A stretch of 64,000 nucleotides of DNA from Bacteroidota bacterium. Lineage in GTDB: Bacteria; Bacteroidota; Bacteroidia; Chitinophagales; Saprospiraceae. The DNA lies in the NCBI GenBank assembly GCA_029557915.1, contig JAKQHS010000030.1, forward strand, positions 124,001 through 188,000. The letters run 5' to 3'. Shown piece by piece: positions 3,270 to 23,203 of the stretch (the stretch's first letter is position 1; every line of letters begins with the position of its first letter). The position numbers and the translations under genes were made by a program. The notes under the pieces are model-generated. The model was not told the DNA's origin and did not search any database. It saw only the letters and a program-made list of their open reading frames with translations.

Positions 3270-4277
3270 TTACCAGATATTGATTTCGGGTTCAAGCAAG
3301 ATTCCAAATTTTTCCTGAACATCTTCCCTCACTTTTTGGGCAAAATCCCAGATTTCGGCTCCGCTTGCCCCACCCAGGTTGACGAGGACCAGGGCCTGTT
3401 TTTCATAGCAGCCTACCCTGCCCATTTGTTTTCCTTTCCAACCCGCCTGATCAATAAGCCAGCCGGCGGGAACTTTTACAAACGTATGCGTAAAGGGATA
3501 GTGCGGCGCATCCGGTTTTACGGATTGCAGCTGCCGGTATTGTTCCTCCGTGAGCACCGGATTCTTGAAAAATGAACCTGCGTTTCCCAGGCGGGCAGGA
3601 TCGGGCAATTTTTTTTGCCTGATTTCAATGACCGCCCGGTGCACATCCCTGATATTGGGATGTTCGATCTTCAGCTCGTGCAGTTTCCTTTCCACGTCCG
3701 CATACCGGGTATTGACTTGAGGTTGTTTATCCAGTTGCAGGGTGGCGCTGAGGATAAAATACCTGTCCCTCTGAGCCGGCTCCTTAAATAGGCTGTGCCG
3801 GTAACCAAACCGGCATTCTGCGTTTTGAAAATGCACGATCGATCCGGTAGTCCGATCGAGGGCTTCGACTACTTGCAGGACATCCTTGATCTCCACCCCG
3901 TAAGCGCCGATGTTCTGGATGGGCGCGGCTCCAAGGGTACCCGGGATGAGGGAGAGGTTTTCAATGCCTCCCCAACCCTTTGCCACCGCCCATTTTACAA
4001 ATTCGTGCCAGTTTTCTCCCCCGCATACCCTGATTCGGGCATACCGGTCGTCTTCCCCGATGATTGATATGCCTTTAATTTCATTTTTAATGACCAGGCC
4101 GTCCAGGTCCCGCGTGATCAGGATATTGCTCCCCCCTCCCAGGATCCGGGGATTTTCATACTGCCGGACCAGGGCCAGGAATTCCTGCGTGTTTTGTGCC
4201 GTGGCAAAATACCTCGCCTTTTGCTCCACCCCGAAGGTATTCAACGATGCCAGTGAATGGTTTTCCAGAATTTTCAT
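3270..4277 (-). CDS. murB: UDP-N-acetylenolpyruvoylglucosamine reductase MurB
   Basis: The 335-residue product reduces UDP-GlcNAc-enolpyruvate to UDP-MurNAc with NADPH and FAD, the second committed step of peptidoglycan synthesis in the cytoplasm. The FAD-binding core shows ILGGGSNILI near residue 45 and SLIPGTLGAAPIQNIGAYG near residue 110. The catalytic serine sits in GNAGSFFKNP and the conserved C-terminal glutamate in LLEPEINIW. The length matches the E. coli-type (type I) enzyme. It follows an ABC exporter gene by eight bases in the same direction and lies about 6 kb from the division/wall cluster rather than inside it. Confidence 0.96.
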   Translation of the reverse strand: MKILENHSLASLNTFGVEQKARYFATAQNTQEFLALVRQYENPRILGGGSNILITRDLDGLVIKNEIKGISIIGEDDRYARIRVCGGENWHEFVKWAVAKGWGGIENLSLIPGTLGAAPIQNIGAYGVEIKDVLQVVEALDRTTGSIVHFQNAECRFGYRHSLFKEPAQRDRYFILSATLQLDKQPQVNTRYADVERKLHELKIEHPNIRDVHRAVIEIRQKKLPDPARLGNAGSFFKNPVLTEEQYRQLQSVKPDAPHYPFTHTFVKVPAGWLIDQAGWKGKQMGRVGCYEKQALVLVNLGGASGAEIWDFAQKVREDVQEKFGILLEPEINIW

Positions 4278-8614: not shown

Positions 8615-9472
8615 ATGGTTTTTCTGGAATCCATCTACAGTTCCCGGAGCGGCAAAAAAACCTATATCGCGGAGTACGGACTTCCGGCCAGGCCACACGG
8701 CCTGGTCATTCTGATCCACGGCCTGGGGGAGCATATCCGGCGCTACGATGAACAGTTTCATTATTTCGTGAATAAGGGTTATGCCTGCCTGGCTGCCGAC
8801 CTCCCCGGTCATGGCCGGTCAGAAGGCCGGCGGGGGGTATGGTCATCCATGGATGAGCCCTACGCGGTGATCGACCGGTTGTTTGCCATAGCCGCAGAGA
8901 AATATCCGGACACACCCCGGATCCTTTATGGACACTCCATGGGGGCCAATATTGCCGCGCGGTATATGCAAGTCCGGCAACCTGCACTCCGGGCGGCAAT
9001 ACTTACCGGGATACCTATACGGACACCAAAGGATATGCCCAGGCCTTTGGTACGGGCCATCCTTTCATCGCCGGTGTGGATAAAAAACCTCACGATCAAA
9101 AACGGCTTGAATATCCAGTCCTTGTGCGGAGACGCCCAGGTGGTCAAAAATTATCTTGCCGATCCCCTGGTCCATGACCGGGTCAGCCTGGGTGCAGGCG
9201 CTTCCATTTTGGACAATGCATACCATTTGACACATACGGAATGGGCCCCGTCCTTCCCCGTTCTGGTCATGCATGGGGAAGACGATAAAATCACCTTCCC
9301 CGAAGGAAGTGTCCTGCTAAAGTCGGTCTGGAATAAAAACGTCGACCTCAAGATCTGGCCGGGGATGATGCACGAAATCCATAATGAAATCCTGAAAAAA
9401 CAAGTCTGGGACCATATGTTGTCCTGGCTTGATCTCCTTAACAATCAAGACACCGATAACCTGTCAAGATGA
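8615..9472 (+). CDS. Monoacylglycerol-lipase-like alpha/beta hydrolase
   Basis: A 285-residue serine hydrolase of the Hydrolase_4 family: oxyanion strand VILIHGLGEH, DLPGHGRSEG, the nucleophile elbow YGHSMGA near residue 109, an acid in VMHGEDDKIT and a late histidine in GMMHEIHNE. These match monoacylglycerol lipase/lysophospholipase enzymes acting on small lipid esters. No signal peptide is seen, so it is probably cytoplasmic. It starts seven bases after pnuC and overlaps the K+ channel gene by four bases (ATGA), implying one transcript. The true substrate is not known. Confidence 0.85.
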   Translation: MVFLESIYSSRSGKKTYIAEYGLPARPHGLVILIHGLGEHIRRYDEQFHYFVNKGYACLAADLPGHGRSEGRRGVWSSMDEPYAVIDRLFAIAAEKYPDTPRILYGHSMGANIAARYMQVRQPALRAAILTGIPIRTPKDMPRPLVRAILSSPVWIKNLTIKNGLNIQSLCGDAQVVKNYLADPLVHDRVSLGAGASILDNAYHLTHTEWAPSFPVLVMHGEDDKITFPEGSVLLKSVWNKNVDLKIWPGMMHEIHNEILKKQVWDHMLSWLDLLNNQDTDNLSR

Positions 9473-10278
9473 AACCAACCCAAAAATACCTGTTTGAGAC
9501 CATTTTTGAAGCAGACACTCCTGCCGGTAAGAAATTTGATGTGGTCCTGATGGTGCTTATCGTGGTGAGTGTCATCCTTGCCAACCTGGAGACCTTGGCC
9601 AACCTTCCGCCATCCATCCAAAACCTCTTCTTTATCCTGGAATGGGGATTCACCGTAATCTTTACCATTGAGTTCATACTCCGGCTGATCGTTGCCCCTA
9701 AACCATTGAAATATATTCTGAGCCCTTATGGGATCATAGATCTGATCGCCATCGTCCCCACCTACCTTAGCCTGATTTTAACGGGCACGCACGCAATCAT
9801 TATTGTGAGGGCCTTGCGCCTGCTACGGGTTTTCCGGTTATTCGAAATGTCCGGCTATGTAAACCAGGGCGCCATACTCATTACCGCTTTTAAACGCACC
9901 AAAGACAAGATCATCATCTTCTTGTTTTTCATATTCATTGTAGTAAATATTGTCGGGGCCCTGATTTACATGCTGGAACACCCTGCCAATCCCAACTTCG
10001 ATTCCCTGCCGCGGAGCGTTTATTGGGCTATCGTAACTCTCACCGGCCTTGGATATGGGGACATCGTACCAAAATCCGCCTTTGGTCAAATCCTTGCTTC
10101 ATTTGTTGTGTTACTTGGTTATGCAATCATTGCCGTTCCCGCCGGCCTGATTACAAAAGAATATGCAAGAACCGATAAATCCATTCATTTTTCCAACCAG
10201 GTCTGCCCGCATTGTTTTAAAGAAGGTCATCAAACCGATGCCGTTTATTGCAGGGCCTGCGGCAATCTGCTCAACTGA
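9469..10278 (+). CDS. Voltage-gated K+ channel with variant filter and C-terminal zinc ribbon
   Basis: A 269-residue six-helix channel of the Kv/ion_trans family. The S4 sensor carries four arginines at three-residue spacing (Arg114, 117, 120, 123). The pore reads YWAIVTLTGLGYGD (about residues 185-198), so the usual TVGYG filter is GLGYG, with glycine at the position of KcsA Thr75. After S6 a short linker leads to a C-terminal zinc ribbon with Cys246-Cys249 and Cys261-Cys264, in place of the common RCK domain. It would conduct K+ across the inner membrane. The start overlaps the preceding hydrolase gene by four bases. Confidence 0.9.
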   Translation: MKPTQKYLFETIFEADTPAGKKFDVVLMVLIVVSVILANLETLANLPPSIQNLFFILEWGFTVIFTIEFILRLIVAPKPLKYILSPYGIIDLIAIVPTYLSLILTGTHAIIIVRALRLLRVFRLFEMSGYVNQGAILITAFKRTKDKIIIFLFFIFIVVNIVGALIYMLEHPANPNFDSLPRSVYWAIVTLTGLGYGDIVPKSAFGQILASFVVLLGYAIIAVPAGLITKEYARTDKSIHFSNQVCPHCFKEGHQTDAVYCRACGNLLN

Positions 10279-10509: not shown

Positions 10510-11931
10510 TCAGTCTACATTGTCGTAGAGATAGGAATTGTTCTCCCGGATCTGGGGTTCGTCATCGCTGGAAAGAGTCCATTTGGGGCTTGGATGGTCT
10601 TTGGAAGGAGGCACGTCTTCCAGCGGGATGTTGCGGCGGAGGTAAGCCGGCTGGTTTTCCATTTCCGAGGTATTGCGCATCTGATGCATCTGGAACCTCA
10701 TTTTCCTGCCGGTTTCCGACCTCGTTTCAGAACCGCCCGGACGGGCTCTTTTCTCTTCTTCGTGGCGACCTGAATTTTCCGCACCGGATTCTGAACGGAT
10801 AAAGGGCTCCTCCTGGTTTTTAATCATGGGTTCACGGTAAGCAGGCTCAAACTCAATGGTTTTATCATTGGTCTGGTCCCCGATATCAAAAACCTCATGC
10901 AGGGACGTTGTGGGTTTTTCCTCCTCCAGCGAAACCTTGATTTTCTCACGGACCTCCACGGGCTTATGCCCGAAATTCTGCTCAAATCCGGTAGCGATCA
11001 CCGTCACGCAGATCTGGTCTTCAAGCCTTTCATCAAAACAATTCCCCCAAATGATATCGGTACCATAGCCCGCCTCTTCCTGGACATACTCCGTGATCTC
11101 ATATATTTCATCCATCGTGACTTCCTGGGTGCCATAAGAAATGTTGAGCAGGATATGCTGCGCACCCCGAATATCGTTTTCTTCCAGGAGCGGTGAACTC
11201 AGGGCATCCACGACGGCGCGGTAAGCCCGTCTTTCCCCGGAAGCGGAGGCGGTACCCATGATCGCCACCCCGCTGTTTCGCATGACGGTATTGACGTCCT
11301 CAAAATCCACGTTGACGTAACCGGGCATGGTAATAATTTCAGCGATGCCTTTCGCCGCGGTGGACAGGATATTGTCCGCATTGCCAAAAGCTTCACTCAC
11401 GGGGAGATTGCCATAGATCTGGCGGAGTTTTTCATTGGATATGATGATAAGGGCATCCACATTCCTTTTCATTTCTTCGATCCCCTCAATGGCTTGCTCC
11501 TTCCTGCGCTTGCCTTCGAAGGGGAAAGGAACGGTGACGATGCCCACGGTGAGGATATCCAGTTCCCGGGCGATTTTGGCCACAATGGGGGCCGCTCCCG
11601 TGCCTGTGCCGCCGCCCATGCCCGCGGTGATAAACACCATCTTGGTATTTTCATTGATCAGGGCCTGGATTTCTTCCAGGGATTCAATGCAGGCTTGTTT
11701 GCCCATATGGGGCTTGGACCCTGCGCCGCGCCCGGCGGTAAGCTGGGGACCCAGCTGGATTTTTACCGGAACCGGACTGGTCTCCATGGCCTGGTTGTCC
11801 GTATTGCAGATGATAAAATCCACTCCGACAATCCCCTGCCGGTACATATGGGACACGGCATTGCTGCCCCCGCCGCCAACGCCTATCACCTTGATGATAT
11901 TTCCTGATTCTTTTGGTATTTCGAATTTCAT
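10510..11931 (-). CDS. ftsZ: Cell division GTPase FtsZ
   Basis: The 473-residue tubulin homologue assembles the cytokinetic Z ring under the inner membrane. Visible motifs are VIGVGGGGSNAV at residues 15-26, CNTDNQAM, the GTP signature GMGGGTGTGAAP near residue 105, and the T7 synergy region before residue 230. A long charged linker follows, ending in NSYLYDNVD, the short C-terminal tail I associate with Bacteroidota FtsZ. The linker of about 150 residues is rich in Glu, Arg and Pro. The gene is last in the leftward cluster and is followed by a strong terminator. It is separated from ftsA by 53 bases. Confidence 0.98.
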   Translation of the reverse strand: MKFEIPKESGNIIKVIGVGGGGSNAVSHMYRQGIVGVDFIICNTDNQAMETSPVPVKIQLGPQLTAGRGAGSKPHMGKQACIESLEEIQALINENTKMVFITAGMGGGTGTGAAPIVAKIARELDILTVGIVTVPFPFEGKRRKEQAIEGIEEMKRNVDALIIISNEKLRQIYGNLPVSEAFGNADNILSTAAKGIAEIITMPGYVNVDFEDVNTVMRNSGVAIMGTASASGERRAYRAVVDALSSPLLEENDIRGAQHILLNISYGTQEVTMDEIYEITEYVQEEAGYGTDIIWGNCFDERLEDQICVTVIATGFEQNFGHKPVEVREKIKVSLEEEKPTTSLHEVFDIGDQTNDKTIEFEPAYREPMIKNQEEPFIRSESGAENSGRHEEEKRARPGGSETRSETGRKMRFQMHQMRNTSEMENQPAYLRRNIPLEDVPPSKDHPSPKWTLSSDDEPQIRENNSYLYDNVD

Positions 11932-11984: not shown

Positions 11985-13358
11985 TCAGCGCAGATCCGGA
12001 TCCGGTGAGGGTTCGAAAAAGTTTTTGATAAAATCCACGAGCGGCTTCTTTTGTTTGCCTTGCGCAGGGATGGGGCTGGCGGTTTTAGGTGCGGGTACCC
12101 CGGGCAGGCCCAATTCAGGCTGGGTCACGGGTTCAGGGCGTTCGGCCGGTCTGTCTTTACGGGTCTGGAGCAGCATCCGCTGCTGGGATTCCTTCATCTT
12201 GAGGCCATACATGAGCAGGCCGACGCCGGTGGCATAGATCGGACTGGAAATATTATCCTTGAATCCGTATCCAAAGTGTTCATTGGGATACCCGATCCGG
12301 GTTTGCAGGCCGGTATGGTATTCACAAAGCAATTCAAAATTTTTGAGGAGGGCGCCGCCCCCGGTGAGGACAATCCCGGCAATGAGTTTTTTCTCATACC
12401 CGGACCTTCTGATTTCATACAGGATCAGGTCGAGGATCTCCTCGAGCCGGGCCTGGATGATGCGCGCCAGGTTTTTCTCCGATATTTCTTTGGGATCCCT
12501 GCCTTTCAGTCCGGGGATGGTGATGATCCGGTTGTCCACGATTTCGTCGGCAAGGGCGGACCCGAATTTGATTTTCAGCTTTTCGGCCTGTTCGGTCATT
12601 ACAGTGCATCCCTCCTTGATATCCCGGGTGATGATGTTTCCTCCGAAGGCGACCACCGCCGTATGGCGGATAATGCCTTCCTGGAAGATGGTGATGTCCG
12701 TAGTGCCGCCCCCGATATCCACCATGACCACCCCAGCCTCTTTCTCTTCCTTGCTGAGCACGGCTTCGGCACTGGCAATGGGTTCGAGCGTCATATCGGC
12801 TACGGTGAGGTTTGCCCTCTCCACGCAGCGCATAATATTATTGGTTGCGGCAATCTGCCCGGTAATGATGTGGAAATTCGCTTCCAGCCGGTGTCCCGAC
12901 ATCCCGATGGGATCCACGATGCCTTGTTCGTTGTCCACCGTGAATTCCTGTGGAATGACATGAAGGATCTTGTCCCCGGGGGTCAGTCCCAGTTTGTACA
13001 TGTCCTGCACCAGCCGGTCTATATCTGCCCGGGATATTTCTTTTTCATTATTGTCCCTTGCGAGGATGCCCCGGTGTTGCAGGCTCTTGATGTGTTGTCC
13101 GGCAATGCCAACATAGACCTCCTGGATTTCGCACTGAGCGTCTTTTTCGGCAAGGTCCACTGCGTCAGAAATGGCTTTCACGGTCTTGTCGATATTGGCA
13201 ATGACTCCCCGGAGGACTCCCTCAGAATCAACCTTACTGGCGCCAAGCACGTCGATTTTGCCGTATTCGTCCTTTCTGCCTACAATGCAACATACTTTGG
13301 TGGTGCCGATGTCGAGGGCCGCCACCACATTCTTCTTATTAAAGTCTCTTGCATTCAT
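11985..13358 (-). CDS. ftsA: Cell division protein FtsA
   Basis: A 457-residue actin-fold ATPase that tethers FtsZ filaments to the membrane. Residues 11-30 hold the phosphate-1 loop (VAALDIGTTKVCCIVG), phosphate-2 is in VVMVDIGGGTTDIT and the adenosine motif in IVLTGGGALLKN. After a Pro/Gln-rich linker the C-terminus ends PLVDFIKNFFEPSPDPDLR, a hydrophobic helix that fits the membrane-targeting amphipathic helix of FtsA. It sits between ftsQ (33-base gap) and ftsZ, as in other dcw clusters. Confidence 0.97.
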   Translation of the reverse strand: MNARDFNKKNVVAALDIGTTKVCCIVGRKDEYGKIDVLGASKVDSEGVLRGVIANIDKTVKAISDAVDLAEKDAQCEIQEVYVGIAGQHIKSLQHRGILARDNNEKEISRADIDRLVQDMYKLGLTPGDKILHVIPQEFTVDNEQGIVDPIGMSGHRLEANFHIITGQIAATNNIMRCVERANLTVADMTLEPIASAEAVLSKEEKEAGVVMVDIGGGTTDITIFQEGIIRHTAVVAFGGNIITRDIKEGCTVMTEQAEKLKIKFGSALADEIVDNRIITIPGLKGRDPKEISEKNLARIIQARLEEILDLILYEIRRSGYEKKLIAGIVLTGGGALLKNFELLCEYHTGLQTRIGYPNEHFGYGFKDNISSPIYATGVGLLMYGLKMKESQQRMLLQTRKDRPAERPEPVTQPELGLPGVPAPKTASPIPAQGKQKKPLVDFIKNFFEPSPDPDLR

Positions 13359-13391: not shown

Positions 13392-14186
13392 TTATGCTCT
13401 TTTTGTACATATGACCTGCCCTTTAAATTTCAGATTAACCGAATAATACAGGTCCCATCCCTGGCCAGGGAGGATCTCCCGGTATACCCGCTTCAGTTTG
13501 TCCGTTTTGTCCTCCAGCCTTTCCAGGTCACCCAAAAAAATGCGCGAGGGACCGAATTTGGGGATCAGGGTCCAGTCGTTCTGACTATGGACCATGATTT
13601 CCTCCACCAGGGCGTGCAGGAACCGGTCCCTGGCGATAAAGTTGGCCAGTTCAAACAGGTCCTTTTCCATGCCGGGCTTGCTCAATTCGAGGCTGTCCTT
13701 CGTCATCGGTACCGGGGCGAAGGCGACCAGTACCCTGGGTGAATAATGCGGGGATGCCGGCATGATGCTTCCATCCTTATCCACGTATAAACTGTTTCCT
13801 TCCGGAGTGAGGATTCGAAGGATGGGCTCTCTTTGTTTTACAAAAATGTTTAACCGGTTGCTGGCATCCAGGTAGACGTCCGTGGATTTGATAAAGTCCA
13901 TGGATTGCAGGCCTGCTTCGATCTCCTGCAGGTCCAGCGTCGCCAGCGGGACGTTGGAAAATTCCTGCTGGAATTTGCGGAGGATTTTTGAACGCATTTC
14001 TTCCGTTGTGATGAAATCGTTCCCGTTTTCAAGGTGCTGTACATGGACCTGCATCTGGCCGGAGAGGGCCCTGTTTTTGAAGCGTCCGGCCCTTTCGTAA
14101 AACATCAGAAACAAAAGCACGGTCAGGCCCATGCCCAGGCGGACCATGTTTTGATCGGTGCCGATATTTCTGAGGAATTTTTTCAT
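13392..14186 (-). CDS. ftsQ: Cell division protein FtsQ
   Basis: The start is ATG at 14186, overlapping the murG stop codon (ATGA); an upstream in-frame extension would run antisense-like inside murG and is rejected. The 264-residue protein has a short cytoplasmic N-terminus, one membrane helix (LGMGLTVLLFLMFY, about residues 17-30) and a periplasmic part with a POTRA-like region (ITTEEMRSKI, then SMDFIKSTDVYLD) and a DivIB-like beta domain. FtsQ bridges early and late divisome proteins. In most Bacteroidota murC lies directly before ftsQ; here murG does. Confidence 0.93.
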   Translation of the reverse strand: MKKFLRNIGTDQNMVRLGMGLTVLLFLMFYERAGRFKNRALSGQMQVHVQHLENGNDFITTEEMRSKILRKFQQEFSNVPLATLDLQEIEAGLQSMDFIKSTDVYLDASNRLNIFVKQREPILRILTPEGNSLYVDKDGSIMPASPHYSPRVLVAFAPVPMTKDSLELSKPGMEKDLFELANFIARDRFLHALVEEIMVHSQNDWTLIPKFGPSRIFLGDLERLEDKTDKLKRVYREILPGQGWDLYYSVNLKFKGQVICTKRA

Positions 14187-15283
14187 GCGGCCACAGGATT
14201 GAGATGAAGAATCTGCTCGACGATCGCTGCCGCCGCCTGCGGCCGGGCCAGGGACTTCTGGGCTTGTTTCATCCGCGTCATCGTTTCCTGGTCCTGCAAA
14301 AGCCTGATGACCTGTGCCGTCCCATTTTGCACGACCTCCCTGTCCGGCAGGAGCCAAGCCGCCCCGGCATCGGACAGCGCCTTCGCGTTATGCGTCTGGT
14401 GATCCTCCGCCACGGAAGGCGAGGGCACGAGTACCACCGGTTTGTTTGCGATCAGCACTTCCGATATGGTGAGCGCGCCGGCCCGGCACAACAAGACATC
14501 TGCTGCGGCATAAGCCAGATCCGCCCGGTCAATGAATGCCATGGCCTTCACGTTGTCCAGGCCAGCTGTTGCAGACCGGCCGAATTTTTCAGCGCCTTGT
14601 TTTCCGTATTGCCAGATCCACTGGATGGATTTTTGACCTGAGATCTGTTCATGGCCCGCGGTCATGCTTTCATTGATCGAACGGGCGCCCAGGCTGCCCC
14701 CCATCACCAGGATTGTTTTTTTATCCTGATCGAGGCCGAAATAGGCCATTGCCTCCTTCCTTTTGGATTCCAGGCCTTCCAGGTCTTTCCTTACGGGATT
14801 GCCTGTGACCACGATTTTTTCTTTGGGGAAAAACCGCTCCATATGATCGTAGGCCACACAAATTTTTACGGCCTTTTTGCCAAGGATCATATTGGTTTTA
14901 CCTGCAAACGAATTTTGTTCCTGGATAAGGGTCGGGATCCGGAGCCAGTTGGCCAGGTACAAGACCGGGCCGCTGGCATAGCCCCCCACTCCAACCACCA
15001 CACCGGGTTTGTATTTTACTAAAATGCGCCAGGCCTGGTAAAGGGATTTGACCAGTTTCCAGGGCAGACTGAAATTTTTTACCAGGGATGAACGGTTGAA
15101 GCCTACCACATCCAGGCCGATGATTTCAAATCCTGCCTGGGGTATTTTTTCCATTTCCATCCTGCCTCTTGCTCCGACGAAAAGGATGTTGACCCCGGGC
15201 ACACGGGCTTTAAGCTCCTGCGCAATGGCTATGGCAGGAAAGATATGACCGCCGGTGCCTCCTCCGCTAATGATCACTTTCAT
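14183..15283 (-). CDS. murG: UDP-GlcNAc:lipid I GlcNAc transferase MurG
   Basis: A 366-residue GT28 enzyme that adds GlcNAc to lipid I to make lipid II on the cytoplasmic face of the inner membrane. The N-terminal glycine-rich loop ISGGGTGGHIFPA, the second loop GVGGYASGPVL and the C-terminal donor-site segment with CRAGALTISEVLIANKPVV are all present. It overlaps the end of ftsW by 17 bases and the ftsQ start by four, so translation is probably coupled. Confidence 0.98.
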   Translation of the reverse strand: MKVIISGGGTGGHIFPAIAIAQELKARVPGVNILFVGARGRMEMEKIPQAGFEIIGLDVVGFNRSSLVKNFSLPWKLVKSLYQAWRILVKYKPGVVVGVGGYASGPVLYLANWLRIPTLIQEQNSFAGKTNMILGKKAVKICVAYDHMERFFPKEKIVVTGNPVRKDLEGLESKRKEAMAYFGLDQDKKTILVMGGSLGARSINESMTAGHEQISGQKSIQWIWQYGKQGAEKFGRSATAGLDNVKAMAFIDRADLAYAAADVLLCRAGALTISEVLIANKPVVLVPSPSVAEDHQTHNAKALSDAGAAWLLPDREVVQNGTAQVIRLLQDQETMTRMKQAQKSLARPQAAAAIVEQILHLNPVAA

Positions 15284-16487
15284 CTTCGACGGTTTTAGGT
15301 TTTGGACTGGTATTCGCCATCTTCATCAGTTCATTTTCAGGAGCAGGCTGTTCTTCCTGGATGGATTCGATGAATTTGCTTACGCTCATGATGATCCCAA
15401 AGGCTACGCTGGTAAACAGCACGGAAGTCCCGCCCATACTTACCAGGGGCAGGGTGAGGCCGGTGACCGGAACCAGGTTGACGGATACCGCCATGTTGGC
15501 AAAGGCCTGGACCACCAGGTTGAGGGTCAATCCCATAGCCAGGATGGCCCCAAAAGCTTTTGGGCTTTTCATGACGATCCGGGATACCCGGAATAACAGC
15601 CAGAGATAGAGCAGCAGTATTCCGGTCGCCCCGATCAATCCGTATTCCTCGCAGATGATCGCGTATATATAGTCGGCATAAGCTGCAGGCAGGAAATTGC
15701 GCTGGGTGCTGTTGCCCGGCCCCAATCCCAGCCAGGACCCGTTGGCGATCGCTATTTTGGATTGCTGGACCTGGTATCCTCCTCCGTTTTCATTCGAAAT
15801 AAAATCGGTGATCCTAGAGATCCAGGTATCGACGCGCACAGCATCCGGGAAAAACCACCAAATCAGGACCACGGTGCCGAAAAGCAGGATGCCGAAGAAG
15901 GCCATCATGAAAATATATTTGAAGGAGACCCTCCCGACAAACATGAGCATGACCGAGGTCGCAAAAAGCAAGAGGGCCGTCGACAGGTTGGCCGGGGCGA
16001 TCAGTCCGCAAATCAGCAGGACCGGCACCATGACCGGTATAAAAGCGCTCTTAAAGTCCTTGATGTATTCCTGTTTATTGGAAAGCGAGCGGGCCAGGTA
16101 CATGATGAGGGCCAGGCGGGCATAGTCACTGGTCTGGAACGAAAGATTGATGACCGGGAGGGTAATCCAGCGTTTGGCATCGTTGGTTTCCACGCCAAAG
16201 GCCAGGGTATACAGGAGGAGCGGGATGGCCAGCAGAAACAGGACCGGGGCCAGCTTGTTGTAGATCAGGTAATTCTGCCGGTGGCAGGCATACATGCACA
16301 GCAGGCCGATCCCTGCCATGACCAGTTGTTTGAGCAAGTAGACTTCCGTATTCCCTTTGTATCTGAGATAAGCCATGGATCCCGTGGCGCTGTACACGGC
16401 AAGCAGGCCGAATCCGATGAGGATCCCGATGATGAGCCACATCACCTTATCGCCTTTCCATTCCTTCTTGGTTGTGATCTGCAGCAT
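15267..16487 (-). CDS. ftsW: Septal peptidoglycan polymerase FtsW (SEDS family)
   Basis: A 406-residue ten-helix SEDS protein that polymerises lipid II together with FtsI at the septum. Typical segments are GLLAVYSATGSMAY in helix 1, LGPGNSTQRNFLPAAYADYIYAI in the large extracellular loop (only partly quoted by position, about residues 255-280), and PVTGLTLPLVSMGGTS near the C-terminus. An acidic cytoplasmic tail follows. The start is one base after the mraY stop codon. murD, which normally lies between mraY and ftsW, is absent. Confidence 0.95.
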   Translation of the reverse strand: MLQITTKKEWKGDKVMWLIIGILIGFGLLAVYSATGSMAYLRYKGNTEVYLLKQLVMAGIGLLCMYACHRQNYLIYNKLAPVLFLLAIPLLLYTLAFGVETNDAKRWITLPVINLSFQTSDYARLALIMYLARSLSNKQEYIKDFKSAFIPVMVPVLLICGLIAPANLSTALLLFATSVMLMFVGRVSFKYIFMMAFFGILLFGTVVLIWWFFPDAVRVDTWISRITDFISNENGGGYQVQQSKIAIANGSWLGLGPGNSTQRNFLPAAYADYIYAIICEEYGLIGATGILLLYLWLLFRVSRIVMKSPKAFGAILAMGLTLNLVVQAFANMAVSVNLVPVTGLTLPLVSMGGTSVLFTSVAFGIIMSVSKFIESIQEEQPAPENELMKMANTSPKPKTVEDESDH

Positions 16488-16488
16488 T

Positions 16489-17742
16489 TTACCTGATTTT
16501 GAGGGTGATGATGGTGACCACTGCCAAGAGGACCGCGACGATCCAAAACCGGTTTACAATCTTGGATTCGTGCATGCCGCTTTTCTGGTAATGATGGTGA
16601 AGCGGGGCCATTTTGAATATCCTTCTGCCCTCGCCGTATTTTCTACGGGTATATTTAAAATAGGAAACCTGGACCATCACAGAGAGGATCTCAATCAAAA
16701 AGATCCCGCAGAGGACGGGCAACAACAATTCTTTTCGCAAAACCACCGCCAGGGTGGCGATGATGCCACCGAGGGTCAGGCTCCCGGTATCGCCCATGAA
16801 TACGGTTGCCGGGTAAGCGTTGTACCATAAAAAGCCGATACAGGCCCCGATCAGGCAGGCCGTGAAGATGACCAGTTCACCCGAATTCGGTATAAAATAA
16901 ATGCCAAGATAATTGGCGAAAATGGAGTTGCCGCTGACGTAAGCGAATACGCCCAGGACCACGCCCACGATCGAAGACACCCCTGTGGCCAGCCCGTCGA
17001 GACCATCGGTGATATTGACCGCGTTGGATACGGCCGTAATGATAAAAATAATGATAATGATATAGAGAAGCGGAGTCAGGGTCCTGGCGGCATCGCCCGT
17101 CCAGCGCAGGATGCCCGCATAATCAAAGGCATTTCCTTTGGTAAAGGGCACATTGGTGGAGAGGGAACGGGCATGTACCAATACTTCGGGATTGCCGGGA
17201 TTGGCCGAGGCGGAAAGCCGCTCCAGGATTTCAAACCGGTTGTCGACGGCTTCTTTTTCCGTGACCCGGATTAATACGTTTTTATTGTATAGCAGCGTAA
17301 GCGCCACGATCAGGCCGACGGCGATCTGACCGGTTAGTTTGGTGACGGCTTTGAGGCCCTGCTTGTTCTTTTTAAACACTTTGATGTAATCATCCAGGTA
17401 CCCGATAAAAAACAAACTAAGGGTCACCGCGATCATCAGCAAAACATATACATTGTCCAGCCTTGCCCACAAGATGCAAGGCAGGAGGATGGCCAGGATA
17501 ATGATGATGCCCCCCATGGTCGGCGTACCCTCTTTTTCTTTCTGGCCATGGAGACCCAGGTCCCTTACCGTTTCACCGATTTGTTTGGCCTGCAGGTATT
17601 TTATGATGCGCTGACCAAACAACATGGAAATCAACAAGGAAAAAATCAACGCTCCGCCGGCCCGGAAAGAGATATAGCGGAACAAGCCCGCACCGGGTAA
17701 ATCGACCTGATTGTTGATATATTCGAATAAATGGTACAGCAT
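16489..17742 (-). CDS. mraY: Phospho-MurNAc-pentapeptide transferase MraY
   Basis: A 417-residue multi-helix enzyme that transfers phospho-MurNAc-pentapeptide to undecaprenyl phosphate, making lipid I. Signature segments are [11 protein letters not shown] near residue 75, [11 protein letters not shown] with the catalytic aspartate pair, [15 protein letters not shown], and the cytoplasmic loop [15 protein letters not shown]. The insert with [12 protein letters not shown] between helices makes it longer than the 360-residue E. coli protein; this longer form is common in Bacteroidota. A 122-base gap with a terminator-like hairpin separates it from murE upstream. Confidence 0.97.
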
Positions 17743-17864: not shown

Positions 17865-19319
17865 TTATATTAAAACTTCTTTTAATATATTTTTATCGTC
17901 AAAGGGGAAACGCTTTCCCTGAATTTCCTGGTAGGTCTCATGGCCCTTCCCTGCGATCAGGATGATATCGCCCGGCCGGTCCGCCATCCTGGCTGCGCTC
18001 TTGATGGCTTCCCTGCGGTCGGACTGTCGGATCATCCGGTGCATTTGCTGGGGTTCAAGTCCGGCGATCATGTCATCCAGGATCTGTTGCGGATCTTCCG
18101 TCCTCGGGTTGTCCGAGGTAAAAATCACGGCATCGCTTTTTTCCATCGCTATGCGGGCCATCACCGGCCTTTTGGTTTTGTCCCGGTCTCCGCCGCATCC
18201 CACTACCGTGATCACCCTGGAACCAGGGGCCTTCAATTCTTTAATGGTATCGAGTACATTCGTCAATGCATCGGGAGTATGGGCGTAGTCGACGATGCCA
18301 AGCACTTTTTTCTCCGCGTGATAAACCGTATCGAACCGCCCATCCACGGCTGGCAAGCCGCTCATGCCGGCCAGGATTTCCATCGGCTCGAAACCAAGTT
18401 CCCGGGCGGCGGCAAAACAGGCCAGAAAATTGTACCCGTTGAAAGCGCCGATCAGGCGGCTGTGCACCTCCATCCCATTCACTTCAAGCACCAGCCCCTG
18501 GAGGGTATTGGCTTTTATTTTTCCCTTGACCTCGGCCAGTTGTTTCAGGGCATAAGTCACCACCCGGGCCCGGGTATTTTGCACCATCACCATGCCGTTG
18601 CGGTCGTCTTTATTGGTGACGGCAAAGGCATCCCGGGGCAACTGATCAAAAAACAACTTCTTACAATCCAGGTAATCCTTAAAGGTGCCGTGGTAATCCA
18701 GGTGGTCGTGGGTTAGATTGGTAAACACCCCGCCCGCAAACCGGAGCCCGGCCGTCCGCTGTTGTTTCATCGCGTGAGAACTCACTTCCATGAAAGCATA
18801 ATCACAACCCGCGCCGACCATGAGCGCCAGCATTTCATTGATCCGGATCACATCCGGGGTCGTATGACTGGTTTCCATCGCCCGGTCGTGGATATAGTTT
18901 CTCACGGTGCTCAGGAGACCTGCCTTGAACCCCAGGGCTTTCATGAGGCGGTAAAGCAAGGTGGCCGTGGTGGTTTTACCGTTGGTACCGGTGACTCCGA
19001 CCAACTTGAGCCTGGAGGAAGGCTGGCCGTAAAAACCATCCGCCAGGATCCCGGCTGCCAGGGCGGGATCTTTCACCTGGAGGAATTCCACCCCGGGGCT
19101 TAATACTTCCGGCAAGCTTTCACAAAGGATAGCCCTCGCCCCCTGTTCCACCGCAGCGCCGATGTACCGGTGACCGTCCGTGACCAGCCCTTTCTGGGCA
19201 ATGAAAACAAAGTTTTCTTTCACTCTTCGTGAATCCGACTCCACCCCTGCCACTTCAAATTCTGCGTTTCCCTTAATGTCAAAGAACTGTATATGCTTTT
19301 TTAATTCTGTCCAATTCAT
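17865..19319 (-). CDS. murE: UDP-MurNAc-tripeptide synthetase MurE (meso-DAP type)
   Basis: A 484-residue Mur ligase that adds the third stem-peptide residue in the cytoplasm. The ATP loop GVTGTNGKTTTATLL lies near residue 110, the carbamylated-lysine region near YLDCKKLFFD, and the substrate-choice motif reads SDNPRTEDP. DNPR is the motif of meso-diaminopimelate-adding enzymes, so the wall is predicted to be DAP-type. It starts three bases after the ftsI stop codon. It is the only Mur ligase in the window. Confidence 0.97.
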   Translation of the reverse strand: MNWTELKKHIQFFDIKGNAEFEVAGVESDSRRVKENFVFIAQKGLVTDGHRYIGAAVEQGARAILCESLPEVLSPGVEFLQVKDPALAAGILADGFYGQPSSRLKLVGVTGTNGKTTTATLLYRLMKALGFKAGLLSTVRNYIHDRAMETSHTTPDVIRINEMLALMVGAGCDYAFMEVSSHAMKQQRTAGLRFAGGVFTNLTHDHLDYHGTFKDYLDCKKLFFDQLPRDAFAVTNKDDRNGMVMVQNTRARVVTYALKQLAEVKGKIKANTLQGLVLEVNGMEVHSRLIGAFNGYNFLACFAAARELGFEPMEILAGMSGLPAVDGRFDTVYHAEKKVLGIVDYAHTPDALTNVLDTIKELKAPGSRVITVVGCGGDRDKTKRPVMARIAMEKSDAVIFTSDNPRTEDPQQILDDMIAGLEPQQMHRMIRQSDRREAIKSAARMADRPGDIILIAGKGHETYQEIQGKRFPFDDKNILKEVLI

Positions 19320-19322
19320 CCT

Positions 19323-21416
19323 TCAACCCATAGTTAGTTCGATGGTCTGCCCCTGAATTTTGGAGCCCGGCGCAATCGACTGGCTTCTCACCCGTCCATG
19401 CCCCTGCAACCTGACTTTTAATCCTTTATTTTCAAGCAAAAAGAGCGCATCGCGCAAACCCATTCCACGGACATCCGGTACCAGATCCTGCTGGAGGTTG
19501 ATCCCGGTCAGTTCAGGCTGGCTTTCGGTCGGACTGAGGCTGGCCCATTCATTGAGGCAACGGTTTTCAAACCTCACGCCGCTGAAATGCAGGAGGGTCC
19601 TGATGTCTGTAGCATAACCTCCTGCACGGATCCGGGCCGGCAGGGGCGCCGTATTCACAGGCGCTTGGTCCTCCGTCGCGATGAAGCGGGAAGCCACACT
19701 GTAATCCGCTATTTCCCGGAAGACGGGCATGGCAGCCGAGGCCCCATAATAGCCGTTGGCAGAGGGTTCGTAAATGACCACGATACATGAATAAACCGGG
19801 TCGTCCGCAGGAAAAAAGCCCGCAAACGAAGCCTGGTATTTTTTTCCCTGGTTGATATCCCCTTTGTAATAATTGGTTACGGCGGTCCCGGTTTTTCCCG
19901 CCACTTTATACAACCGGTTGCGCAGGGCATAAGCCGTGCCTCCGGAATCCGTTGTGCTTTTGAGTAATTCCATGGCCTGTTGGAGGGTCGAATGGCTGCA
20001 AATCTGGTTTTTCAGCACCTGGGGTTTATAGGTTTTTACCGGCTCCGAATACTCCAGGATCTGGTGTACCAACTGGGGCTTCATCATCCGGCCTTTATTG
20101 GCCACCGCATTGTAAAAAGTCAGGAGCTGGAGGGGCGTCAGGGTCAGTTCATATCCATGGGCCATCCAGGGAATGGAGGTGCAACTCCATTTTTGTTCGA
20201 CGTTGTAGGCTTCCTTAATATAAGGGGCGGGTTCTCCTTCGAGGTCGATGCGGGACCGTTCATTCAGACCAAACTGTTCGAGTCGCTTGACAAATTTTTT
20301 GGCATTTTTTTCATAATATTTCTGTGCGGTCACCGCCACCCCGACATTGGAGGACTGTGCAAATACCTGCTTCAGGGTCGGCAGGCTCCCTTTGCGTTTT
20401 TCGGAATCCCTGATTTTTTTGCCGCACAATTCCACCTCTCCTCCATGAATATCCACCCGGTCATCGAGACGGATATACCCGTCTTCCAGGAGGGCCATCA
20501 TGGTAGCCAGTTTGAAGGTGGAGCCCGGCTCTGTGGCTGCACCGACTGCGTAGTTCAGGTACTCGCCGATATCGTCTCCCGAGCGGACCAGGTTGGCCAT
20601 TGCTTTGATTGCGCCGGTCTTCACTTCCATCACCACGGCAGTGCCACCCAGTGCCTGGTGGTGGGCCACCGATTTGTACAGGGCTTGTTCGGTGATGTCC
20701 TGCAGATCGATATCAATATGGGTGATGATATCTTTTCCTCTTTTGGGTTCAAAGTCCCCGATATCGTCCACGGGAACCCAGATGTCCCTGGCTACCTTTT
20801 GGACCAGCCGGCTTCCCTTTTCACCACCCAGGACATCGTCATAATACCCTTCAAGCCCTACCGGTTTGGCGCCCTCACGCACCGAACCCAGTGTGCGGGC
20901 CGCAAGCATCCGGTATGGCCTCTCCCGCTTTGATTTACGCACCACGATCAATCCTCCCTTGTTGCCGCCCAGCCGGAACAAGGGGAAGGTCTTGATTTTT
21001 TCCAGCTGGCTGTAGGTCACTTCTTCCTTAATCAGCAGGTACCGGTTGCCAGCCTGGCGTTCCCGCCACAGCAGGTCGCGATAGGCTCTTTCGGAGATGA
21101 CCGGGTTGAGGTGCCGCGAAAGGCAAAGGGCCAGGGAATCAATGTTTTTTACGAATTTATCCTTCGGCACGGCCAGCAGGTCCATACGAACTTCAAACAG
21201 AGGCAGGGAGGTTACCAGCATACGGCCGTCCGAGGAAAGGATATTCCCCCTTTCCGGTTCTATGGGCTGATGCCTCACATACAAACTGTCTCCCCGGCCT
21301 CTCCAGGACTCCCCTTCAACGATGCCGATCTGGACCACCCGGCCCAGGATCAGGAAACCCGCAAGTACGAAGAGCAGGAAAACGACATAGGTTCTTATGA
21401 TGATTTCGTCTTTCAT
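19323..21416 (-). CDS. ftsI: Septal transpeptidase FtsI (PBP3) with PASTA domain
   Basis: A 697-residue class B penicillin-binding protein: a short cytoplasmic start, one membrane helix (VVFLLFVLAGFLILG), a dimerisation domain with EPERGNILSSDGR, and a transpeptidase domain with SxxK as STFK near residue 300, SSN near 355 and KTGT near 508. The last 60 residues form one PASTA domain (LVPDVRGMGLRDALFLLENKG). It cross-links septal peptidoglycan with FtsW. The PASTA domain is absent from E. coli FtsI but seen in many Bacteroidota. It lies three bases after the ftsL-like gene. Confidence 0.96.
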   Translation of the reverse strand: MKDEIIIRTYVVFLLFVLAGFLILGRVVQIGIVEGESWRGRGDSLYVRHQPIEPERGNILSSDGRMLVTSLPLFEVRMDLLAVPKDKFVKNIDSLALCLSRHLNPVISERAYRDLLWRERQAGNRYLLIKEEVTYSQLEKIKTFPLFRLGGNKGGLIVVRKSKRERPYRMLAARTLGSVREGAKPVGLEGYYDDVLGGEKGSRLVQKVARDIWVPVDDIGDFEPKRGKDIITHIDIDLQDITEQALYKSVAHHQALGGTAVVMEVKTGAIKAMANLVRSGDDIGEYLNYAVGAATEPGSTFKLATMMALLEDGYIRLDDRVDIHGGEVELCGKKIRDSEKRKGSLPTLKQVFAQSSNVGVAVTAQKYYEKNAKKFVKRLEQFGLNERSRIDLEGEPAPYIKEAYNVEQKWSCTSIPWMAHGYELTLTPLQLLTFYNAVANKGRMMKPQLVHQILEYSEPVKTYKPQVLKNQICSHSTLQQAMELLKSTTDSGGTAYALRNRLYKVAGKTGTAVTNYYKGDINQGKKYQASFAGFFPADDPVYSCIVVIYEPSANGYYGASAAMPVFREIADYSVASRFIATEDQAPVNTAPLPARIRAGGYATDIRTLLHFSGVRFENRCLNEWASLSPTESQPELTGINLQQDLVPDVRGMGLRDALFLLENKGLKVRLQGHGRVRSQSIAPGSKIQGQTIELTMG

Positions 21417-21419
21417 CCC

Positions 21420-21731
21420 CTATTTCTTCACAAGTTTTTTGGTCGAGGACTGTTTATGGTAGCCCAGTTCAAGGGGCCTGACATCGTTGGCGAGCTGGGT
21501 GGGTGAACTTGAAAAAAGGAATTCCGACCGGAAAGACATATACTGCCAGCGCAATTCCTTGACTTCCTCTCTCAGTTTGTGGATTTTCCTGACCTTCCGC
21601 TCCGCCTGGTGGGCGTTTGCGATATAAAGCAGGGCCAAAATGCCGGCGAAATAGATAAAAGGCAGGTGCTTGATCACCATTCCGCCGGCGAGGATTTGTT
21701 GTAGCCACTTATTTTGAGACCTTTCTTCCAT
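21420..21731 (-). CDS. FtsL-like divisome protein
   Basis: A 103-residue bitopic protein: charged cytoplasmic start, one membrane helix (LPFIYFAGILALLYIANA, about residues 23-40), then a coiled-coil stretch rich in Lys/Arg/Glu (KVRKIHKLREEVKELRWQY). Topology, length and position between rsmH and ftsI fit FtsL, which bridges FtsQ and FtsWI. FtsL sequences diverge fast, so the call rests on position and architecture. Confidence 0.8.
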   Translation of the reverse strand: MEERSQNKWLQQILAGGMVIKHLPFIYFAGILALLYIANAHQAERKVRKIHKLREEVKELRWQYMSFRSEFLFSSSPTQLANDVRPLELGYHKQSSTKKLVKK

Positions 21732-21815: not shown

Positions 21816-22727
21816 TTATGCCGACTTTTCGGCAATTCGTAGTCGGGCACTGCGCACCCGGTAGTTTTCTTTTATTTCGTCTTCAGAGGGCCGGATCGAT
21901 TTTTTTGACACTGCCCTCAGTTTTATTATTTTGTTTCCAAACGGATCCTTTTTTACGAGTCCATCCACATCCCCGGTCTGAATAAGATGTTTGACCATCC
22001 GGTCCTCCAGGGAATGGTAGGAAAGGATCACCAGCCTGCCTCCCGGCTTCAACACCTCTACTGCGTCATTCAATAATTGACGCAGAGAGGTCATTTCTTC
22101 ATTCACCTCAATGCGGATCGCCTGGAATACTTTAGCCAGGTATTGGTTGACCGGGCCGACGGCTACGGACCTTGCCAGGTCCTCCAGTTGGGCTACGGTC
22201 GTCACCGGGTTCCGTTCCCTGCGTTGCATGATCAATTCCACCAACCGGTGCGCGTTCCAGACCTCTCCATACCCCCTCAGGATCTTTTCGAGTTTCGCCG
22301 GGTCCGTCCGGTTGATGACATCGGCCGCCGTCCTGGGCTGTTGCTGGTTCATTCGCATGTCCAGGGGCAGGTCCGGCCCGGTATGGCGGAATGCGAAACC
22401 CCTTCCGGGCATGTCCAGTTGATATGAGGAAACCCCCAGGTCCGCCAGCAGGCCGTCGATCTGGCCGATCCCATAGTATTTCAGAAACCGCCTGAGATAT
22501 CTGAAATTGGAATGAATCAGCAAAAACCTTCGATCCGCGATCCTGTTTTGGAAAGCTTGTTCATCCTGGTCAAATGCGATCAGGCGTCCGTTGACGCCCA
22601 ATTTCTCCAAAATCGCCCGGGAATGCCCTCCCCCGCCAAAGGTGGCATCCACATAGATGCCATCCGGTTGGATATGAAGGCCTTCCAGGCATTCCTGTAC
22701 CATCGCTGGCACATGGTATTCCATCAA
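21816..22727 (-). CDS. rsmH: 16S rRNA m4C1402 methyltransferase RsmH (MraW)
   Basis: A 303-residue SAM-dependent methyltransferase acting on 16S rRNA position C1402. It opens with YHVPAMVQECLEGL, then the SAM loop VDATFGGGGHSRAIL, DLGVSSYQLDMPGRGFAFR and the late ILSYHSLEDRMVKHL, all diagnostic of the family. It overlaps the mraZ stop by four bases and is separated from the ftsL-like gene by 84 bases without a recognisable signal. Confidence 0.97.
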   Translation of the reverse strand: MMEYHVPAMVQECLEGLHIQPDGIYVDATFGGGGHSRAILEKLGVNGRLIAFDQDEQAFQNRIADRRFLLIHSNFRYLRRFLKYYGIGQIDGLLADLGVSSYQLDMPGRGFAFRHTGPDLPLDMRMNQQQPRTAADVINRTDPAKLEKILRGYGEVWNAHRLVELIMQRRERNPVTTVAQLEDLARSVAVGPVNQYLAKVFQAIRIEVNEEMTSLRQLLNDAVEVLKPGGRLVILSYHSLEDRMVKHLIQTGDVDGLVKKDPFGNKIIKLRAVSKKSIRPSEDEIKENYRVRSARLRIAEKSA

Positions 22728-23203
22728 ATCCCTTTGGGTATTGACGAAGCCGGCTGGACCCCTCCAAAAACATTCGCCGCCAATTCGGAGAACTGATCCG
22801 GCTCGTTTGCCAGTTCAGCATTGTATTTTTTCTGATCCCATATCTCGATTTGATTGAGATAGGCAAACAGCGTGACGTTTTTTTCCAAGCCTGCGTATTC
22901 AGTAAGGTTTTTGGGAAGAAGAAGACGGTCGGCAGGATCGGCCAGGATCTGGGTGGCCCCCCGGTAAAAATACCGGACAAACTGCCTCTGGACCGGATCG
23001 TAGATATTGAGCTTATCCACTTCTGCCGCTTTCTGATCCCAAACCGGTTTGGGATACAACATCAGGCATTTTTCAAAACCGCGATTGATGACAAAATTCA
23101 GAACCATGCCCTGCTCCTCCATCTGGCGGATAAGGCCTGCGGGTAATTTAACCCTGCCCTTATCATCCACGGTGCTTTGATATTCTCCTGTAAAGCGGGA
23201 CAC
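22724..23203 (-). CDS. mraZ: Transcriptional regulator MraZ
   Basis: A 159-residue protein with two SpoVT/AbrB-like MraZ repeats. The first has GEYQSTVDDKGRVKLPAGL at residues 5-23 and the second ADPADRLLLPKNL near residue 95, each with the DxxGRxxLP-like core (weaker in repeat two). MraZ binds DNA as a ring-shaped multimer and represses the dcw promoter in E. coli. It is first in the cluster, and a matching TGGGN repeat array lies 38-62 bases upstream of its start, which suggests autoregulation. Confidence 0.96.
   Translation of the reverse strand: MSRFTGEYQSTVDDKGRVKLPAGLIRQMEEQGMVLNFVINRGFEKCLMLYPKPVWDQKAAEVDKLNIYDPVQRQFVRYFYRGATQILADPADRLLLPKNLTEYAGLEKNVTLFAYLNQIEIWDQKKYNAELANEPDQFSELAANVFGGVQPASSIPKGI

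Follow-up and report, generated by a model that had tools for sequence, protein, structure and literature searches.

MurC and MurD Are Absent from a Bacteroidota Genome and Many of Its Relatives: A Dipeptide Epimerase and an Mpl-like Ligase as Candidate Replacement

The dcw Cluster of the Window

The stretch of DNA analysed here, hereafter the window, comprises 64,000 nucleotides of a Bacteroidota bacterium (assembly GCA_029557915.1, contig JAKQHS010000030.1, positions 124,001 to 188,000) and carries a dcw gene cluster from which two genes of stem-peptide synthesis, murC and murD, are missing. A first interpretation, made from the letters of the window and hereafter called the sequence-only reading, had given the gene order as mraZ-rsmH-ftsL-ftsI-murE-mraY-ftsW-murG-ftsQ-ftsA-ftsZ, with a single base between mraY and ftsW and a four-base overlap of murG and ftsQ. 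The sequence and the family matches confirm this order, on the minus strand, and both junctions. In the following list, the genes named rsmH, ftsL, ftsI, ftsQ, ftsA and ftsZ are those that we take to be the bearers of these names, and syntenic genes are those of other clusters without murC and murD.

22724-23203, minus strand: mraZ, first gene of the cluster (TIGR00242, 112.5 bits, cut-off 98.35)
21816-22727, minus strand: rsmH (mraW), 46-63% identical to the syntenic gene of four other clusters
21420-21731, minus strand: gene of a short ftsL-like protein, named from its position and from 38-70% identity over short stretches to its counterparts in other clusters
19323-21416, minus strand: ftsI, 41-72% identical to the syntenic gene of four other clusters
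17865-19319, minus strand: murE (NF001126, 595.8 bits, cut-off 373; PF08245, E 1.3e-51; motif SDNPRTEDP)
16489-17742, minus strand: mraY (TIGR00445, 331 bits, cut-off 192.05)
16488, no strand: the single base between mraY and ftsW
15267-16487, minus strand: ftsW (best family TIGR02614, 272.5 bits, under its cut-off of 337.5)
14183-15283, minus strand: murG (TIGR01133, 305.3 bits, cut-off 250.25)
14183-14186, minus strand: ATGA overlap, in which the ftsQ ATG overlaps the murG stop
13392-14186, minus strand: ftsQ, named from its position and from 27-33% identity to the syntenic gene of three other clusters
11985-13358, minus strand: ftsA, 56-69% identical to the syntenic gene of three other clusters
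10510-11931, minus strand: ftsZ, 53-74% identical to the syntenic gene of three other clusters
3270-4277, minus strand: murB, whose product makes UDP-N-acetylmuramic acid (UDP-MurNAc) (NF000755, 429.6 bits, cut-off 277)

For ftsQ, the ATG in the overlap with murG was taken as the start instead of the mechanical TTG at 14357, and neither the ftsQ nor the ftsL-like product matches an NCBIfam model. As the sequence-only reading had stated, murE, with its meso-diaminopimelate (DAP) motif, is the sole Mur ligase gene inside the window, and murB lies elsewhere in it.

The two closed junctions are the places where Bacteroidota usually keep the missing genes, a point that the sequence-only reading had made and that measurement bears out. 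Among 80 MraY comparison loci, mostly Bacteroidota by title with a few bins under other names, 74 could be measured between mraY and ftsW, and 72 of these have a murD-sized gap (at least 1200 bases); between murG and ftsA, there is space for murC plus ftsQ (at least 1700 bases) in 62/64. Both pairs of exceptions are the same two loci, from an uncultured Saprospiraceae (L033) and an uncultured Flammeovirgaceae (L054, genome G321). A tblastn search of 21 clusters found no remnant of murC or murD, the best match outside murE (E = 0.024) lying in the genome of the window on the strand opposite to the cluster. An assembly join at the two junctions is excluded, because the cluster sits in a contig of 264,995 bases and the identical arrangement recurs in independent genomes.

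Genome-Wide Absence of MurC and MurD

The genome of the window (G000) and many of its relatives have lost MurC and MurD, enzymes thought essential for wall building. G000, a draft of 5.04 Mb that is 98.8% complete, encodes four Mur_ligase_M proteins, three of which are MurE (595.8 bits), MurF (353.2 bits) and FolC (349.9 bits), each above its NCBIfam cut-off. The fourth (G000:C25) reaches the cut-off of neither the murC model (TIGR01082, 225.1 bits, cut-off 335.1) nor the mpl model (TIGR01081, 184.6 bits, cut-off 388.7), and we name it Mpl-like. MurB, MurE, MurF, MraY and MurG are all present. The sequence-only reading had offered two explanations, a move of both genes to another place or a change in the early steps of the stem peptide. 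Relocation is not supported, since neither gene was found in G000, in its genus-mate G001 or in 17 further draft genomes.

Among 60 genomes, i.e., G000 and relatives, MurD scores over cut-off in 49 and MurC in 51, and both are missing jointly in the same five (G000, G001, G005, G008 and G026); this count sets aside split, partial and N-interrupted genes and the 57%-complete G050. We give hardly any credence to the idea that both genes are present and were missed, in unassembled sequence or through excessive divergence from the models. All the genomes are drafts, and some of the MurD-negative genomes of the family-wide count given below are incomplete metagenome-assembled genomes (MAGs), which would favor it; on the other side stand the completeness of G000 and of eleven other genomes of the panel described below (96-100%), the joint absence in the same five genomes, the contiguous and closed-up clusters, the detection of the other Mur ligases by the same search, and that of a divergent MurD, from genus g10 (see below), at E 2.3e-93.

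Recurrence among Relatives

The sequence-only reading had considered that its point would fall if relatives routinely lacked both genes. Most of them keep both, a MurD match (E <= 1e-40) being found in 242/298 genomes of the family, which titles such as that of L033 suggest to be the Saprospiraceae, and in 184 of the 217 with a completeness of 90% or more and a contamination of 5% or less. Nevertheless, a polyphyletic minority lacks both genes genome-wide, so that we are dealing with a recurrent pathway change and not with a matter of gene order. The 56 family genomes without a MurD match are the complement of the listed matches; some of them are incomplete MAGs or belong to genera in which MurD is otherwise present.

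For closer comparison, we used a panel of 19 MurC/MurD-less genomes (18 family genomes of 15 genera and the Flammeovirgaceae MAG G321) and 27 MurC/MurD-bearing ones, hereafter bearers. Three genomes were kept out of the 19, namely G062 (74% complete), G322 (two Mur ligase matches, taken as fragmentary) and G141, which has MurC in its dcw cluster and no MurD match. The bearers are 27 of the 32 bearing family genomes among the first 37 (G009, G011, G020, G023 and G027 were left out), and G013, in whose assembly a stretch of N interrupts MurC, was counted as having it. The MurC/MurD-less genomes measure 2.7-7.6 Mb. Their Mur ligases are MurE, MurF, Mpl-like and FolC, outside G000 labelled on size, score and position, and some also have an open reading frame of 820-910 amino acids that is taken as a MurF-alanine racemase fusion. 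Measurement was possible in 18 dcw clusters, that of G322 among them, and all are closed up. Between mraY and ftsW there are 0-67 bases in 13 of them and 249-637 in the other 5; from murG to ftsA there are 760-917 bases, which fits ftsQ and nothing more.

On a tree inferred from the concatenated sequences of eight dcw proteins (49 rows and 3461 columns, short-search LG+G4, with twelve rows differing in composition), the MurC/MurD-less state needs 7 changes, 6 of which are forced by the starred branches alone. The alignment had 57 rows at first (L026 and L051 being left out, and G021 having too few genes) and 49 after eight more were left out. Gathering the 18 family genomes in one clade is rejected, at a cost of 589.8 log-likelihood units (p-AU 1.9e-32). 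The state is polyphyletic, and we read it as repeated loss, because the regain of both genes at their exact ancestral places is unlikely.

The Mpl-like Ligase

Judged by its sequence and modelled fold, the Mpl-like protein is a Mur ligase of the MurC/Mpl type, and by its profile scores it falls short of both the curated MurC and the curated Mpl families. Its best sequence match in the PDB is 3hn7, the Mpl of Psychrobacter, while its AlphaFold2 model (pLDDT 94.0, pTM 0.92) resembles MurC structures (TM-score up to 0.84) more than 3hn7 (0.66). At the amino-acid site, 30/30 MurC sequences carry the motif FQPHL[YF][ST]R and 43/43 Mpl-like sequences carry ELHT[FY]SS, the Arg that is invariant in MurC being Ser in every Mpl-like sequence; hence, the Mpl-like protein should not be taken for a plain MurC. 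A His and Args are described as belonging to the L-Ala ligands of Haemophilus MurC (PMC3060825), and the alignment suggests that the MurC motif is that site.

We consider it very unlikely that the Mpl-like protein acts as a MurC, adding L-Ala, and that D-Glu is then added by an enzyme outside the Mur ligase fold. The higher score with the murC than with the mpl model, both under cut-off, the resemblance of the structural model to MurC and the intact MurI of G000 agree with such a role. However, the substituted Arg argues against it, as does the occurrence of the same motif in relatives possessing a MurC as well. Moreover, 16/19 MurC/MurD-less genomes are without MurI, on which free D-Glu depends, and we know of no candidate D-Glu ligase.

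The neighborhood of mpl brought no new shared gene, the neighbors that recur being also found beside it in the bearer G017 or G013. All 19 MurC/MurD-less genomes retain MurE, and the DNPR core of its DAP site in 20/20 MurC/MurD-less sequences; a single weak column (K versus R) distinguishes MurE between the groups (20 versus 36 sequences).

The Epimerase Candidate

A gene of the MR_MLE_C superfamily (PF13378) was found in 18/18 MurC/MurD-less genomes and in 18/27 bearers. Since this domain is too broad for counting L-Ala-D/L-Glu-type dipeptide epimerases (AEE), the AEE protein of G026, and then an alignment of 20 sequences, served as query. The single MR_MLE_C protein of G026 has 3iji as its best PDB match, followed by 1jpd, "L-Ala-D/L-Glu Epimerase"; it scores 146.9 bits with NF011708 (cut-off 343) and 123.6 with NF041118 (cut-off 500). 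Residues K151, K153, D177, E203, D228, K250, D300 and D302, which are presumably the catalytic lysines, the metal ligands and the DxD motif of enolase-superfamily epimerases, are invariant in 20/20 sequences.

In 13/19 MurC/MurD-less genomes, the AEE gene directly adjoins that of an S66 LD-carboxypeptidase (LdcA); these neighbors form one cluster of S66 LD-carboxypeptidases, two members of which were scanned. The ykfA-ykfB arrangement of Bacillus is likewise a murein-recycling layout. In 8/19, and also in G017, AEE directly adjoins a short BioF/Kbl-like enzyme dependent on pyridoxal phosphate (PLP), of 320-361 amino acids (e.g., L198:386-1432, L194:9094-10125 and L193:7800-8864). LdcA, AEE and the PLP enzyme stand in a row in six genomes, including G000 (AEE = G000:C91) and G321, and since the row also occurs in the bearer G017, it is probably ancestral. 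The Flammeovirgaceae MAG G321 has the full set, i.e., closed dcw gaps, the Mpl-like ligase and an AEE beside LdcA.

Co-occurrence of AEE, the Mpl-like Ligase and the Loss of MurI

With the G026 AEE as query (E <= 1e-50), AEE was found in 19/19 MurC/MurD-less genomes, the AEE of G321 being 47% identical to the query, versus 10/27 bearers. The Mpl-like ligase occurs in 19/19 versus 15/27, all counts of it in bearers, here and below, being among the matches listed (to about E 1e-29). The two together are present in every MurC/MurD-less genome and in 1/27 bearers (Fisher 4.8e-12, kinship not corrected). Nine bearers have AEE only, 14 the Mpl-like ligase only, three neither and one both, as expected if holding both makes MurC and MurD dispensable. 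Among the five bearers left out, the Mpl-like ligase occurs in G023 and G027 and AEE in none, so that the joint count would be 1/32. In five independent pairs on starred branches, the presence of both is concordant in 4.9 on average and opposite in none, whereas singly AEE (4.1/5) and the Mpl-like ligase (2.0/5) do less well. As a side observation, AEE and the Mpl-like ligase are almost mutually exclusive in the 27 bearers, perhaps partly via kinship.

MurI follows the same division, being present in 3/19 MurC/MurD-less genomes versus 22/27 bearers (1.4e-5); over cut-off, and with G062 included, the count is 3/20 versus 26/32 bearing family genomes. An inversion of Glu within a peptide would lead one to expect such a loss. 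Two bearers of MurC and MurD, G013 and G028, also have no MurI match. Across the family, the alignment of 20 AEE sequences matches 141/298 genomes at E <= 1e-55. At E <= 1e-65, AEE occurs in 43/56 MurD-less versus 92/242 MurD-bearing genomes (Fisher 1.9e-7), and at E <= 1e-85 in 39/56 versus 84/242. Of the two explanations of the sequence-only reading, it is thus the change in the early steps that is supported, the replacement having comparative evidence and MurI being usually lost.

A Proposed Route from a Free Dipeptide

From these comparisons, we think it probable that AEE and the Mpl-like ligase replace MurC and MurD in starting the stem peptide. In this route, AEE would epimerise free L-Ala-L-Glu at Glu, presumably in the direction of L-Ala-D-Glu. 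The Mpl-like ligase would then couple L-Ala-D-Glu as one block to UDP-MurNAc, the product of MurB, and so cover the work of MurC and MurD, if its specificity extends to the dipeptide; MurE, MurF, MraY and MurG would proceed as usual. The L-Ala-L-Glu may come from protein turnover, peptide uptake or another ligase. More generally, we lean towards the existence of a further early-peptidoglycan route, starting from free dipeptide, in which MurC, MurD and MurI give way to a single epimerase and a single ligase, and which arose repeatedly in Bacteroidota lineages holding both.

Several observations weigh against this proposal. The activities of AEE and of the Mpl-like ligase are predicted ones. The AEE proteins of G026, G000 and G321 fall below every NCBIfam cut-off, and the top model for AEE is the N-acetyl-D-Glu racemase DgcA (222.9 bits, cut-off 400), ahead of the L-Ala-D/L-Glu epimerase (146.9/343). 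The LdcA-AEE-PLP row resembles a murein-degradation or recycling operon, and is shared by G017, a bearer that has AEE and the Mpl-like ligase and still keeps MurC, MurD and MurI. No source of L-Ala-L-Glu was found, the search covering ATP-grasp_4 and no further ligase family: a predicted ATP-grasp_4 L-amino-acid ligase (E <= 1e-8) occurs in 4/27 bearers and in only 2/17 MurC/MurD-less genomes (G001 and G111), for which reason we reject it as a general source. Class-I tRNA-synthetase-like peptide ligases, as far as PMC2922099 presents them, gave no lead. The Mpl-like ligase has no residue that tells MurC/MurD-less genomes from bearers (19 versus 24), i.e., no specialisation is visible, so that dipeptide use in the former, if real, is probably possible in the latter too. 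MurI is retained in G000, where it is full-length and intact (276 amino acids), in G001 and in G321. The independent-pairs sign test cannot go below 0.0625, the pairs being too few for p < 0.05. Finally, 13/56 MurD-less genomes have no AEE at E <= 1e-65, and these are the main challenge to a strict rule: they comprise G062 (74% complete), in which MurC, MurD, AEE and Mpl-like all had no match, G141, which has MurC, G205 (87% complete), whose genus-mate G123 has MurD, and ten of unlisted quality.

The kinetics of Mpl point in the same direction. According to the available account of the Psychrobacter enzyme, the only full-length Mpl characterised, the rates are 260 per min with the tripeptide, 1.4 with L-Ala-D-Glu and 0.7 with L-Ala (PMC3060825). 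The main rival to the replacement proposed here is that these bacteria scavenge, which we hold to be unlikely while taking it seriously: murein peptides of other bacteria would be taken up and trimmed by LdcA, the tripeptide would be joined by the Mpl-like ligase, and AEE would only degrade surplus L-Ala-D-Glu. Besides the tripeptide preference of the known Mpl, the recycling layout of AEE directly beside the S66 LD-carboxypeptidase in 13/19 genomes fits scavenging, and the loss of MurC, MurD and MurI is equally expected from it. Some Saprospiraceae are described as epiphytic, but the species studied are, in the same account, mostly single cells inside flocs (PMC9304909), and the panel's placement in the Saprospiraceae is one that we infer. 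Moreover, tripeptide uptake would make MurE dispensable, and yet MurE is kept throughout the panel with its DNPR core; the genomes are large, and the losses extend across 15 genera of the family.

Relation to Known Systems

The proposed route and the MurD2-MurL pathway reported for Xanthomonas oryzae (PMC8788868, PMC5808125) have in common that Glu is inverted once in a peptide, so that MurI is not needed. As described there, the Mur ligase MurD2 replaces MurD on UDP-MurNAc-L-Ala, and the ATP-dependent MurL epimerises on the nucleotide; in our genomes, by contrast, MurC and MurD are both absent, and epimerisation would take place on the free dipeptide through an enzyme of the enolase superfamily. 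By the MurD2 criterion, no MurD-type ligase was found in the 19 MurC/MurD-less genomes. One genus of the family, g10 (L279:5967-8514, G010:C244), has a divergent MurD (313.8 bits) outside the dcw cluster. Overlapping it is a gene truncated by the end of the contig, which matches a single NCBIfam model, MurL (NF041275, E 4.9e-61, 206.6 bits, cut-off 700). In G010, murC is kept, but the dcw cluster is without murD and MurI has no match. By its gene content, this arrangement looks like the Xanthomonas pathway within the same Bacteroidota family.

The neighborhood in g10 lends something to another possibility, which we regard as highly improbable, namely that the Mpl-like ligase adds L-Ala-L-Glu and that Glu is inverted by an epimerase of the MurL type acting on the nucleotide. 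A MurL homologue was encountered only in g10, which has MurC and a MurD, no MurL search having been made in the MurC/MurD-less genomes, and this possibility would make AEE an incidental correlate.

With murein recycling, as outlined in PMC3060825, the dipeptide route shares its enzyme families (LdcA, Mpl and L-Ala-D/L-Glu epimerase), the position of LdcA next to AEE and the joining of a preformed peptide to UDP-MurNAc by Mpl. The known enzymes, however, supplement or degrade while MurC and MurD carry out de novo synthesis, whereas here they would be the sole route. Loss of MurC is also on record in Buchnera of the aphid tribe Aphidini, reduced endosymbionts without murC, murE and/or murF that still make a cell wall, the remaining ligases having been suggested to compensate (PMC9116674, PMC10591338); MurD is not among the losses that these sources name in the parts available. 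The genomes described here are, in contrast, large, keep MurE and MurF, and lost MurC and MurD together. A survey of Verrucomicrobia mentions MurB/MurC fusions or no MurC found (PMC4803751). From the canonical MurA-MurF pathway, these bacteria keep MurB, MurE, MurF, MraY, MurG and the Bacteroidota dcw order, and they differ from it in that MurC and MurD are not found genome-wide and MurI is usually absent. Every enzyme of the proposed route belongs to a known superfamily; in the open-licence literature, we found no report of a joint loss of MurC and MurD with MurE kept.

Textbooks count MurC and MurD among the essential enzymes, and both are drug targets. Their joint absence from bacteria with large genomes shows that stem-peptide assembly can do with a substitute for its first two steps. 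These bacteria probably belong to the Saprospiraceae, which are reported to be abundant in wastewater plants (PMC9304909). If the stem peptide does start from a free dipeptide, a recycling pathway turned biosynthetic several times, the dispensability of MurI would have an explanation, and two genes would be enough to test the idea in a laboratory strain.

Minor Observations

In one relative (G031:C2, near 203952-205238; L234), murG and murC are seemingly one open frame of 846 amino acids. In the window itself, past the downstream end of the dcw cluster, the opposite strand encodes an ion-channel protein (PF00520, E 1.6e-36; 9469-10278, plus strand).

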